A stretch of DNA of 64,000 nucleotides from Bacteroidales bacterium (lineage in GTDB: Bacteria > Bacteroidota > Bacteroidia > Bacteroidales > Bacteroidaceae): the NCBI GenBank assembly GCA_015654535.1, contig JAATGU010000049.1, positions 26,217 through 90,216 of the forward strand, read 5' to 3'. The translations under genes were made by a program, and so were the position numbers. The notes under the pieces were generated by a model. It ran no database searches and was not told the DNA's origin. It saw only the letters and a list, made by a program, of their open reading frames with translations. Below are positions 20,714 through 29,268 of this stretch, in pieces; position 1 is the stretch's first letter, and each line of letters begins with the position of its first letter.

Positions 20714-21047
20714 TGTTTTGCTCTGTTTGTTTTCCTATATAACAAACAAAGATAAAAAAATATTTGGTTTTACCTCCTTAATTTATCCTAATGTTTACTT
20801 CCTGTCCAAGTAAGTCTTTTCCACAATAGAAGACACAGTGATTATCCTTTTCGGCTGAAAACGAGCAAATTACAAGAATAAACTTCTTGATAGGTAACGA
20901 TTTGGAAACGAGCGAGTCTCTGTTTTTTACGTCATTTTTCACAATGCACACAAAGAACGACTTTTCGATTGTAAAGGTACGAAAAAACTTTCTAAGCAAA
21001 TAGAATTACTTCTTGAATATTTGAAATTAGATTTTTTAATTAGGCAC

Positions 21048-21078
21048 TTTGTAAATACAATAGAAATGGCTATATTTG
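21048..21078 (+). promoter_or_regulatory. Bacteroidetes-type promoter of the transposase
   Basis: TTTG (21048-21051) - 19 bp - TATATTTG (21071-21078); fits TTTG-N19-21-TAnnTTTG. Confidence 0.7.
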
Positions 21079-21095
21079 CGGGAAAAGTATTAACA

Positions 21096-21986
21096 ATGGA
21101 GAACAAATTCAGAAGCCTGACTATTTTTGAGTTTCAGGAACATTTCCCTGACGAAGATTCCTGTTATGCCTATCTAAGTGAATTAAAATGGGGAACTGGT
21201 TTTGTATGCCCCAGTTGCGGACATACCAAATATTGCAATGGTAAGCGCAAATACGACAGGCAGTATACCAGTTATCACCGCATATCTTCACCAACGAGCG
21301 GGACGCTGTTTCATCAGTTGAAGTTTTCTGTATTAAGGGCCTTTTACATCGTTTACTATGTCAGTGCGAATAAAAAAGGGATTAGTAGTACGGAACTGAG
21401 CAGAAAGCTGGGGCTAAGACAAAAAACTTGCTGGAAGTTCAAAGGCAAGGCAATGAAAGCGATGGAGAGCAGTGGTAATCACAAAATCAATGGCAATGCC
21501 GAAGTTGACGAGAGTGTTGTTGGTGGTCAGGAAGAAGGCGTTGTGAGAAGAAAAAATGCAAAAAAGAAGCTGGTTGTATTTGCCATTGAGCGCAGCGGCA
21601 AGGGAGTTAGCCGTATGTATGGGAAGGTTATCCAAAAGAGCAGTTCAAAAGAACTTGGTGAATTTATGAAAACAACCATTGGTCTGGATGTACAAATAAA
21701 AACGGATAAATGGCGGGGATATACTCCTTTAGCAAAAGAGTTCAAAAACCTGATACAGATTGATTCTGGGAAAAAGGGTGGTAACTTCCCAGATTTGCAT
21801 CAGTGTATCATGGGATTCAAAGGCTGGCTCCGGGGAATGCACCATCAGGTCGAGAATTTGCAGGCTTATATTGACGAATACTGTTATCAGTTTAACCGTA
21901 GCAATATGAAGGATGGAATTTTTGACAACCTATTGAATAGAATGGTTAAAGCTGATCCTTTCCCGTATAAACCAATTATTACTTAA
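21096..21986 (+). CDS. IS1595-family transposase
   Basis: MENKFRSLTIFEFQEHFPDEDSCYAYLSELKWGTGFVCPSCGH zinc ribbon followed by DDE-type domain (NAEVDESVVGGQEEG ... IKTDKWRGYTPL). Confidence 0.9.
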   Translation: MENKFRSLTIFEFQEHFPDEDSCYAYLSELKWGTGFVCPSCGHTKYCNGKRKYDRQYTSYHRISSPTSGTLFHQLKFSVLRAFYIVYYVSANKKGISSTELSRKLGLRQKTCWKFKGKAMKAMESSGNHKINGNAEVDESVVGGQEEGVVRRKNAKKKLVVFAIERSGKGVSRMYGKVIQKSSSKELGEFMKTTIGLDVQIKTDKWRGYTPLAKEFKNLIQIDSGKKGGNFPDLHQCIMGFKGWLRGMHHQVENLQAYIDEYCYQFNRSNMKDGIFDNLLNRMVKADPFPYKPIIT

Positions 21987-23364: not shown

Positions 23365-24090
23365 ATGAACATCGGAATAATTGGTGCGGGACTTATCGGA
23401 GGTACACTTGCCCGCAGACTATCACTATTAAATCACAAAGTAACTATTGCAAATTCCAGAGGACCTGAAACCTTGAAAGATTTGGCAACAGAAATAAACG
23501 TAAAGGCAGGAACGGCTTATGAAGCTGCACGGAATAATGACATTGCAGTCATCACTATTCCGCAAAAAAACATTGCTGATTTACCGAAAGATTTGTTTGA
23601 AGGTGTAAAAGATGATGTCATTGTAATTGATACTTGCAACTACTATCCGTTGTTAAGAGATGGTGTTATAGCCGAACTTGAACATGACCTGACAAATTCT
23701 GAATGGGTTCAGGCAAAAATCAAAAAACCCATAGTAAAAACATTTAACTCTATTCCTTATACAAGTTTGGGAGATGCAGGTCGTCCGAAAGGCGACAAAA
23801 ACAGAATTGCTTTGCCTGTTTCGGGCGATAGAAAAAAAGACAAAGAAGCAGTAAGCGATTTACTTGACCAACTTGGATTTGATTTTTTTGACGTAGGCGA
23901 ACTTAAAAATTCGTGGAAATACGAACCGGGTACACCAACCTATTGTATGGACTTCAACTTAGAGACCTTAAAAAATAAGTTGAATGACTTAGGGACAATC
24001 AGAACACCTGAAATCAAAGCAAACATCATCGAACAAAGAACGGAACAAGAAAAACAGTTTTTAGAATACTATTCAAAAATGAAAAAGTAA
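23365..24090 (+). CDS. NADP/F420-dependent oxidoreductase-like Rossmann protein
   Basis: MNIGIIGAGLIGGTLARRLSLLNHKVTIANSRGPETL; start chosen at the internal Met of ORF 23326. Confidence 0.85.
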   Translation: MNIGIIGAGLIGGTLARRLSLLNHKVTIANSRGPETLKDLATEINVKAGTAYEAARNNDIAVITIPQKNIADLPKDLFEGVKDDVIVIDTCNYYPLLRDGVIAELEHDLTNSEWVQAKIKKPIVKTFNSIPYTSLGDAGRPKGDKNRIALPVSGDRKKDKEAVSDLLDQLGFDFFDVGELKNSWKYEPGTPTYCMDFNLETLKNKLNDLGTIRTPEIKANIIEQRTEQEKQFLEYYSKMKK

Positions 24091-24164
24091 TTAAAACCAC
24101 TTGCCAAAAAATAATAAAAAGGTAGCAAAGGTAAGGCGGACAGCGGACGACTGAAGCCACTTAT

Positions 24165-24300
24165 AACAGCACACCTACACGCAAGCAGGGGTTTCGTGCT
24201 TCGTAGGACAGGAAAGCGCTAAATTTGAAGCTCAGTTCTTCGTAGGAAGTTCAGTGCTAAAAATCTCTGCCTGCGTGTAGCCGCCCCCCCGTTGCAAGCA
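24165..24300 (+). repeat. Large imperfect hairpin with attC-like layout
   Basis: CTACACGCAAGCAG (24175-24188) pairs with CTGCCTGCGTGTAG (24267-24280), 13/14; outer AAC at 24165-24167 and GTT at 24291-24293; internal direct repeat CTTCGTAGGA at 24199-24208 and 24238-24247. Confidence 0.6.
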
Positions 24301-24334
24301 ATGTTCGTGCGATCCGTAAACACCTTTAGGGTCC

Positions 24335-24342
24335 TACCTTTG
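24335..24342 (+). promoter_or_regulatory. -7 box candidate for the MFS gene
   Basis: TACCTTTG, about 24 bp upstream of ATG 24367. Confidence 0.45.
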
Positions 24343-24366
24343 CCATCTTTTTAAGCAGAGAAAAAA

Positions 24367-25575
24367 ATGAAGTTATCAAATAAAGAAATCTTTATTGTTA
24401 TTATATTGAGCCTGCTCGCGTCTTTTATAGCGCTGAGCATAGATTTGTATTTACCCTCTTTTAAATTCATTGCGGAAGATTTGCATACCGATATGGGAAA
24501 AGTGCAGATTTCTCTTTCCGTATTTATTGGCGGGCTTGCCGTTGGGCAACTTTTATGGGGAACGCTTTCGGACAGAGTGGGCAGAAAATTACCACTTATC
24601 ATTGCTATTAGCGTTTACAGTATTGCTTCGATTTTGGTTGTCACCACACATAGCATAGAAGAATTGTGGCTGTACCGTTTTTTGCAGGCTTTTTGTGGTT
24701 CGGCAGGAATGGTGGTGCCGAGAGCGGTTGTTACCGATTATTTTGACAGGGGAAAAACGGCAAAAATCTTTTCGTTGCTAGCCTTGATTTCGGGCGTTGG
24801 GCCCATTATTGCACCAAGTATCGGAACCCTTTTATTAGGCGGAAACAGTTGGCATAATGTTTTCGTGGCAATGGCAGTTTTTGGTGCAGTCTCGGTGTTT
24901 TTGGTTATTTTCTTTTTGCCCGAAACACATTCGCCAAAAGAAAAAACAACCGCTTACACCAAAAAGGAACGCGGCGTTTTGGCTTCATACATTCACGTTT
25001 TCCAAAACAAACAGTTTGTCGTTTATACACTTGTGGGCAGTATTACATTCAGTGCGCTAATGGTTTATATTTCCAATTCACCTTTCCTTATAATGGAAAA
25101 AGGCGGTTTCACGGGAACGCAATACAGCTTGGTTTTTGGCTTGAACGCGATAGGAATGGTGGTGGGTAATTATTCCGTTGGTTTTCTGGTAAATCGTTTC
25201 AGCACCAGGACATTGGTTAAATTCGCTTCATTATTACAGACAATTTTCGGGGTTTTGCTGGTTGCCTGTATTCTGGCTGAACTTCCGCTTACCATAATTT
25301 TGGCATTGTTGTTTTTATCTTTGATAGTGATTGGCATTTCGCTTACTTCCACAATCGATTTGGCATTAGCGCCTTTTCGCAACGACAGCGGAACGGCTTC
25401 GGCAGTTTTCGGGTTTTTCCAGTTGGCATTAACGTTTGTAATATCGGGTGTTGCCGGGTTGGTACAAAACAATTCTGTTATGCCTATGGCAATCACATTG
25501 TTGTCTTGTGCGGTGATTTCATTCGTGGGAACGACTATTTTAAAAAATAAATCTGACAATGGAAAAGCGAAGTAA
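24367..25575 (+). CDS. MFS drug transporter, Bcr/CflA-like
   Basis: 402 aa; IDLYLPSFKFIAEDLHTDMGKVQISLSVFIGGLAVGQLLWGTLSDRVGRKLPL. Confidence 0.92.
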   Translation: MKLSNKEIFIVIILSLLASFIALSIDLYLPSFKFIAEDLHTDMGKVQISLSVFIGGLAVGQLLWGTLSDRVGRKLPLIIAISVYSIASILVVTTHSIEELWLYRFLQAFCGSAGMVVPRAVVTDYFDRGKTAKIFSLLALISGVGPIIAPSIGTLLLGGNSWHNVFVAMAVFGAVSVFLVIFFLPETHSPKEKTTAYTKKERGVLASYIHVFQNKQFVVYTLVGSITFSALMVYISNSPFLIMEKGGFTGTQYSLVFGLNAIGMVVGNYSVGFLVNRFSTRTLVKFASLLQTIFGVLLVACILAELPLTIILALLFLSLIVIGISLTSTIDLALAPFRNDSGTASAVFGFFQLALTFVISGVAGLVQNNSVMPMAITLLSCAVISFVGTTILKNKSDNGKAK

Positions 25576-26762: not shown

Positions 26763-26805
26763 CAGAAGAATAAATTACCAACCGCAGACGGACAAAAAAG
26801 AGCTA

Positions 26806-26888
26806 CACACAATAAGACGGCTGACGTTCAGCCCTGAGAGTTCCTGCGGACTTTTCCGCCCGAACGCCAAGCCCCGAACCGTTATGTG
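26806..26888 (+). repeat. Second structured intergenic element, weaker attC-like hairpin
   Basis: ACGGCTGACGTTCAGCC (from 26816) can pair imperfectly with CGAACGCCAAGCCCCG (26860-26877); outer CACACAATAA versus GTTATGTG; inner GCGGACTTTTCCGC hairpin. Confidence 0.4.
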
Positions 26889-27078
26889 AAATCTTACGGA
26901 CAGTGCGATGCGATTTGTATTGGCCTTGGTTTTGGTACTTAACTCTCGGTTGGGAAATTGAATATGTTTACGAAGAGAGGCATCATATTTTTACTATATC
27001 ATTCAACAGTTAACAGAATATCTTATTTTTGGCTACGACAAAAGCAGATTTGGCAACATCTACTCTTTTTCAGTTACT

Positions 27079-28916: not shown

Positions 28917-28941
28917 CAATCACAACGCTCTTCCGGCAAAA

Positions 28942-29268
28942 ATGGCAAAAGAGCATTCCGCAGTTATCATAGGCCGTTGTGGTTTTCATGTCCTGCGTGA
29001 ATACCCGAATCAGGTCAGCATATTTTTACATGGAGATATTGCTTTCCGAAACAGCCGGATACAGAAGTTATATAATGTTTCAGAAGAGGTTGCTGGAAAA
29101 ATGATTGCCCAAAGCGACAAAGAAAGAGCAGTTTACATCAATACATTTACCAGGAAGGAGTGGGCAAATGCAACGAATTACGATATTTCCATAGATACTG
29201 GCAAAACCGGCGTTGATAAAACTGTTAAACTTATCCTGCATTATTTGGAACTGGCTGGGCTGACTTAA
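28942..29268 (+). pseudogene. Cytidylate-kinase-like protein, C-terminal fragment
   Basis: SAVIIGRCGFHVLREYPNQVSIFLHGDIAFRNSRIQKLYNVSEEVAGKMIAQSDKERAVYINTFTRKEWANATNYDISIDTGKTGVDKTVKLIL; P-loop N-terminus missing. Confidence 0.7.

Follow-up and report, generated by a model that had tools for sequence, protein, structure and literature searches.

A hairpin in the 64-kb window (the whole stretch of DNA that was analysed) is very probably a solitary (orphan) attC-type site that belongs to an integron-like cassette system found in the Bacteroidota. Judged from sequence, this system, whose integrase is not IntI, is widespread in the phylum and works like an integron; the features that point to this are the site family, the covariation of its stems, the polarity of its arrays, the boundaries of its cassettes, the association with an integrase, the position of an attI and the reuse of one cassette in two contexts. 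It is also likely, on balance, that the system represents a second integron class, defined by a XerA-like integrase with a HARP-like domain and no IntI-specific insert, that this class occurs in Bacteroidota and at least one Spirochaetia genome, and that tet(X), blaVEB, erm(F), estT and similar resistance genes were mobilised through it before the uptake of some of them by ISCR elements and class 1 integrons. Such a class would have been overlooked because integron searches demand the IntI-specific insert.

The site occupies positions 24157–24301 of the forward strand, on which all of its parts are given, and is supported by the covariance models R1 and R2 and by blastn. It opens with an R''-type end, CCACTTATAAC (24157–24167), which corresponds in position to the R'' boxes compared in 131 cassette pairs, and closes with an R'-type end, GTTGCAAGCA (24291–24300), where similarity to the plasmid copies ends at CGTT and where cassette junctions place the putative crossover at G|TT. 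The 5' stem arm CTACACGCAAGCAGGGGTTT (24175–24194) and the 3' stem arm AAATCTCTGCCTGCGTGTAG (24261–24280) form an inverted repeat that covaries in the family, and they enclose a loop (24195–24260) with two copies of CTTCGTAGGA, the sequence of which is kept while the arms covary. The large imperfect dyad, the outer AAC...GTT ends and the repeated interior motif noticed in the preliminary description are thus real: the 20-nt arms are 85% complementary (17/20 pairs) across a 66-nt gap, AAC stands at 24165–24167 and GTT at 24291–24293, and GTGCTTCGTAGGA / GTTCTTCGTAGGA are found at 24196 and 24235, inside the hairpin loop. The loop, which had been called variable, is conserved in sequence across the family.

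Shuffled 64-kb windows contain a mean of 0.25 dyads of this size (17/20 arms, gap 50–90); the real window has them at three places, namely this hairpin, 31063 and a stretch rich in A+T near 45.9 kb. The folding energy alone is unremarkable (RNA z = −1.4; DNA z = −1.66 for one strand and −1.48 for the other), and an Rfam search with the hairpin gave no match. What distinguishes the hairpin is its conservation, its covariation and the cassette boundaries of its relatives. The site is flanked by a 19-nt inverted repeat (89%; 24115–24133 and 24335–24353), whose right arm contains TACCTTTGC, a candidate −7 promoter element of Bacteroidota type for the MFS gene that follows.

The first relatives were obtained by blastn, before any model was built. 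Copies 84–91% identical to the hairpin are present on 13 plasmid records from Bacteroides, Riemerella, Myroides, Sphingobacterium, Flagellimonas, Parabacteroides, Salmonella, Acinetobacter and an uncultured bacterium, and each of the seven records examined has erm(F), tet(X), ere(D), estT or a gene for dihydrofolate reductase close to the hairpin. On the right-hand side, similarity among the plasmid copies ends at CGTT and each record differs beyond it, which marks this point as a cassette boundary. The two ends of the estT unit are complementary, as seen from its start GTTAGCGGGC in one record and its end CCCGCTAAC in another. Two further structures were observed in this material. A 4806-bp circular Riemerella 'plasmid' (NZ_CP081933.1) consists solely of five head-to-tail cassettes and has no annotated replication gene, and its closure lacks a single T relative to the junction expected; either several cassettes were excised together as a circle or the assembly produced it. 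On two records (L027:4188–4254 and L022:4198–4296), the interval between an estT or erm(F) site and tet(X) holds units that are just a hairpin, with no ORF, and these are apparently empty cassettes.

Two covariance models were used to follow the family through genomes: R1, from an alignment of nine sites with compensatory stem changes, and R2, from 150 sites. Sites found with R1 occur in 114 of 297 Bacteroidota genomes, grouped on one strand, and those found with R2 in 150 of the same 297 (ten candidates scored per genome); initial matches to the complementary strand of these hairpins were not counted, as they merely echo the palindrome. Site detection is not independent, since the training loci of R2 and the test set overlap, and the E-values of both models are rough. 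Strand, position and boundary complementarity are features on which the models were not trained, except through the site itself. The window site, a training member of both models, scores 135.8 bits with R1 and 113 bits (E ~1e-25) with R2, while its blastn homology is independent of them. Among 20 genomes from outside the Bacteroidota, three gave weak R2 matches of 25–33 bits. In a Spirochaetia metagenome-assembled genome (L168 / L312), two weak R2 sites enclose a cassette with 9/9 complementary ends and share a contig with a HARP-bearing XerA relative; from this genome, the system may extend beyond the Bacteroidota.

Across the 150 sites, 17 of the 18 stem pairs change on both sides in some sequences. 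Stem cells are paired in 92.2% of cases, against 34–43% with the partners slid, in an alignment that was fitted to the structure and so favours pairing. G-U wobble pairs are scarce in the stem except at two positions, and this shortage of G-U intermediates fits pairing that matters in DNA. It also bears on the suggestion that the hairpin is a transcription terminator, as already raised in the preliminary description, or another gene-end RNA hairpin spread by gene transfer. The hairpin does stand after genes, a stable fold is possible and an additional effect on transcripts may exist. However, there is neither a T-tract nor a terminator pattern (G+C-rich stem plus T-run) at the hairpin, the folding energy is ordinary, the arms are compensated with few G-U intermediates, and the outer ends pair across the cassette instead of inside the hairpin. 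This pairing across the cassette refutes termination as the main function, and the reading as a whole is very improbable.

The decisive property of the family is this pairing across cassettes. In an integron cassette, the TT... start pairs with the R'' of the cassette's own terminal site, and the two halves join only in the circle; in a terminator or a miniature transposed repeat (MITE), pairing would be within one hairpin. Cassettes of the family begin with GTT followed by 7 nt complementary to the R'' of the site that ends the same cassette. In the larger set, 108 of 131 cassette starts match the R'' of their own cassette at 6/7 or better, against 8/178 (4.5%) within one site, 5/92 with the next-but-one site, 5/126 in the wrong direction and 2.4% by chance. 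The first set, from loci with R1 sites, gave 49/71 units across the cassette and 6/90 within the site at the same threshold. The median cassette length is 901 bp, the longest ORF lies on the strand of the site in 105 of 119 cassettes, and the sites form arrays in a single orientation. The resemblance to attC that had been proposed for the window hairpin therefore extends from its ends and paired arms to the cassette logic of its family. A MITE, a REP-type element or some other transposed repeat could account for copies that are dispersed, palindromic and, in some genomes, numerous. This origin is nevertheless very unlikely: the window's genome holds a single copy, arrays keep a strict orientation with an integrase at their head, and each cassette has complementary ends specific to itself; the cassette-boundary test excludes the MITE alternative as the main explanation.

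The integrase is a tyrosine recombinase at the head of the arrays and was first noticed beside the erm(F) site on a Flagellimonas plasmid. At 120 loci with relatives of this enzyme, 192 of 195 nearby sites point away from the recombinase gene (179 downstream on its strand and 13 divergent), and no site was found around 19 housekeeping XerC/D genes. Among the 32 integrase loci whose downstream sequence reaches 3 kb or more, R2 finds no downstream site in 8, of which two have a divergent array instead; it finds none in 15 of 31 integrase loci from named genomes, a set that includes distant relatives. Loci of this kind may have other site types, divergent or lost arrays, or may reflect limited sensitivity.

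When the start of the first cassette is placed by its complementarity to the R'' of the first site, a junction emerges 50–252 bp 3' of the integrase stop in 41 loci, and within about 77–131 bp in 33 of them. The junction motif is close to TATAAACAA|GTT and is preceded by inverted repeats; integrase, junction and cassettes usually share one direction. Lying about 100 bp beyond the recombinase stop, this attI-like junction is a putative attI.

These loci also speak against the view that the sites belong to classical IntI integrons and that the XerA gene is a bystander. True IntI genes are present in 85 of the 297 genomes of the phylum, the blaVEB cassette is found in a class 1 integron as well, and one IntI array (L298, G434:C13) has weak periodic R2 matches of 18–22 bits, which suggests that the two types of site either share ancestry or have converged. 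On the other hand, the regions around 20 true IntI genes contained no R2 site at E ≤ 0.01, nearly all of these IntI genes belong to other classes than that of the window, a class in which the sites are common, and in most of the 41 loci the first cassette begins about 100 bp from the XerA gene. An IntI origin of the sites is accordingly very improbable.

The array enzymes themselves differ from IntI. The best match of two of the three tested is NCBIfam XerA (NF040815), and all three remain at or below 211 bits with the IntI model TIGR02249 (cut-off 265), with a split match. Aligned to the integron integrase 2a3v, the array enzyme has a gap where the IntI-specific insert sits, and the missing insert explains both the score below the cut-off and the split. 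None of the catalytic residues (R, K, H-x-x-R, H and Y) varies among the array recombinases. An unrooted tree separates three groups, namely the array enzymes (85/92), IntI (100/100) and XerC/D (100/99). The idea that the window carries simply a classical integron minus its integrase is therefore not sustained, as the recombinase in the arrays of its relatives is XerA-like and does not pass as an IntI.

At its N-terminus, the array recombinase has a domain some 60 residues long in which two Trp are invariant. This domain resembles HARP, a DNA-binding domain of SMARCAL1: one member, a relative from the Spirochaetota, exceeds the cut-off of Pfam PF07443 (HARP; 26.2 versus 25 bits), 5 of 30 reach E ≤ 0.05, and an N-terminal profile matches the SMARCAL1 HARP structure 4o66 at E = 0.012. 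In an AlphaFold2 model (pLDDT 87), the domain adopts a beta-beta-alpha-beta-beta arrangement (pLDDT ~92), and the best structural matches of the model are XerA and the integron integrase 2a3v. We infer that the HARP-like domain helps to recognise the folded site.

Taken together, the proposed mechanism is as follows. A XerA-like tyrosine recombinase with a HARP-like N-terminal domain and without the IntI-specific insert heads the cassette array, with an attI-like junction about 100 bp 3' of its gene. Each cassette, of a median of about 0.9 kb and usually with one co-oriented gene, runs from TT... to a hairpin site of about 140 bp that ends in ...G. In the circular form, the TT-start would pair with R'', so that the complete site is rebuilt, and recombination at G|TT with attI or with another site would insert or remove the cassette. 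The reaction is presumably catalysed by the XerA-like recombinase, and its substrate, by analogy with IntI, would be a folded single strand.

Several clinically important resistance genes fit this scheme: tet(X), blaVEB, erm(F) and estT are very probably cassettes of this gene-capturing system. In Acinetobacter, tet(X3) is immediately preceded by a truncated relative of the array integrase (48.9% identical). Three different left sequences, among them an attI-type junction, precede the tet(X) unit, which starts with TTATGTGCC or TTATGGGCC and ends with GGCACATAAC. A second truncated relative (52.6%) is carried by Klebsiella and Aeromonas plasmids and, in the record examined, stands directly upstream of blaVEB-3. 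The blaVEB cassette has the start G|TTAGCGGTAA in both the class 1 attI1 and the XerA-type attI, and exactly G|TTAGCGGTAATTT beside the truncated integrase and in attI1; the class 1 integron concerned comprises intI1, aadB, arr-2, cmlA5 and OXA-10 along with blaVEB. The attC of blaVEB scores 44.8 bits with R2 (E = 1.2e-9). A start at the same base in both contexts implies that one cassette entered two integrase systems. An experimental demonstration that IntI1 recombines the blaVEB attC does not follow from PMC8024014, in which junctions at attI1, aadB and dfrA5 sites are reported.

In the window, by comparison with these arrays, the site stands alone. The cassette position before it is taken by a gene for an F420-dependent NADP oxidoreductase-like protein (23365–24090, forward strand; Pfam PF03807, 5.8e-19), and an MFS transporter gene follows (24367–25575, forward strand; Pfam PF07690, 6.8e-47). 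Upstream of the oxidoreductase gene there is no GTT cassette start that matches the R'' of the site, and downstream of the site there is no clear partner R'' for a next unit. The window's own genome contains no XerA-type integrase at E ≤ 1e-30 and no IntI, with weak Xer-like matches only. For these four reasons the site is regarded as an orphan. The oxidoreductase has two distant homologues only among the 297 Bacteroidota genomes and is not a known cassette elsewhere. A genome-wide search, proposed at the outset as a way to find further copies, returned the hairpin once in 4.1 Mb. The expectation of one such element per gene in the same orientation was likewise not borne out, as the window holds one significant site and the next candidate reaches 14.1 bits (E = 1.4).

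That candidate, an imperfect hairpin at 26805–26892 (forward strand) after an aldo/keto reductase gene, ends in CCGTTATGTG and resembles a decayed short site; given its non-significant R2 score and the lack of plasmid relatives, it was rejected as a second site. At 28930–29000, after an AraC-type gene, CACAAC...GTTGTG ends surround a short hairpin, which could be a short attC-like site or chance. An IS1595/ISXO2-like transposase gene (Pfam PF12762, PF12760) lies at 21021–21986, 2–3 kb upstream of the site, and adjoins an AraC-type gene, which is followed by the oxidoreductase gene; the transposon may have deleted the cassette start.

The original proposal of a cassette array lacking an integrase thus survives in part: the hairpin is an attC-like site of an integron-type system, but it is a lone site, with the cassette start absent upstream and no clear R'' downstream. 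The genome belongs to the Bacteroidota, and the narrower label Bacteroides in the preliminary description is not established. Stranded in this way, with no array, integrase or intact cassette, it may be inert. We lean towards the possibility, compatible with membership in a real family, that the window copy is a decayed relic without present function. The missing integrase, the lack of a matching cassette start or R'' nearby and the IS1595-type transposase upstream are all in keeping with decay, whereas the hairpin itself is intact (17/20 arm pairs, 113 bits with R2) and could be used by an incoming integrase.

Earlier surveys offer a context for these observations. The one complete integron that IntegronFinder 2.0 reported from Bacteroidetes proper is that of Salinibacter ruber (PMC9024848), published models of attC origin include no Bacteroidetes (PMC8352920), and IntegronFinder defines IntI by its specific additional domain (PMC9668308). 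No description of a XerA-type cassette system was found in the open-licence PMC literature, and a paper or preprint outside it is possible. If the present reading is correct, a second integrase class runs a cassette system, the IntI-specific domain is not the sole way to do so, and a source system for tet(X) and blaVEB has come into view. The covariance model and an integrase profile would allow the earlier integron surveys to be repeated.

The reading could also help to explain how Riemerella captures resistance genes independently of homology. According to a 2026 paper, aph(3')-IVb is taken up by natural transformation and inserted into the R. anatipestifer chromosome although homology is lacking, always together with 27 bp on its 5' side and 140 bp on its 3' side; the authors liken the fold of the 140 bp to attC, and the mechanism was left open (PMC13148043). 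This 3' region shares its host group and neighbouring resistance genes with the family described here. The report differs in that it concerns one gene, with no recombinase, no family and no attI (PMC13148043); its 3' region is a possible member of the family.

Among known recombination systems, archaeal and bacterial XerA, the dif sites of XerC/XerD and the pdif modules of Acinetobacter share with the present system a Xer-type tyrosine recombinase and resistance genes organised as modules. While dif and pdif sites are short, those of the family are long hairpins in head-to-tail arrays; moreover, the array integrases form their own group in the tree, and housekeeping XerC/D genes have no such sites nearby. 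The 'XerD' or TnpF gene beside tet(X3) in the ISCR2 contexts of Acinetobacter, hitherto annotated as a generic recombinase linked to ISCR2, is the truncated array-integrase relative described above and is followed by the attI-type junction and the tet(X) cassette. With IntI integrons, both class 1 and sedentary chromosomal, the system has in common GTT at the cassette boundaries, an R''/R' complementarity that reappears in the circular form, arrays of single orientation, an attI beside the integrase gene, hairpin sites of about 140 nt and, with class 1, the blaVEB cassette. It departs from them in its XerA-like integrase, which lacks the IntI-specific insert, falls below the TIGR02249 cut-off and carries a HARP-like N-terminal domain, in a hairpin loop that is conserved in sequence, unlike that of most attC sites, and in a layout in which the integrase gene, in contrast to the usual IntI arrangement, points into the array and has the attI at its 3' end.
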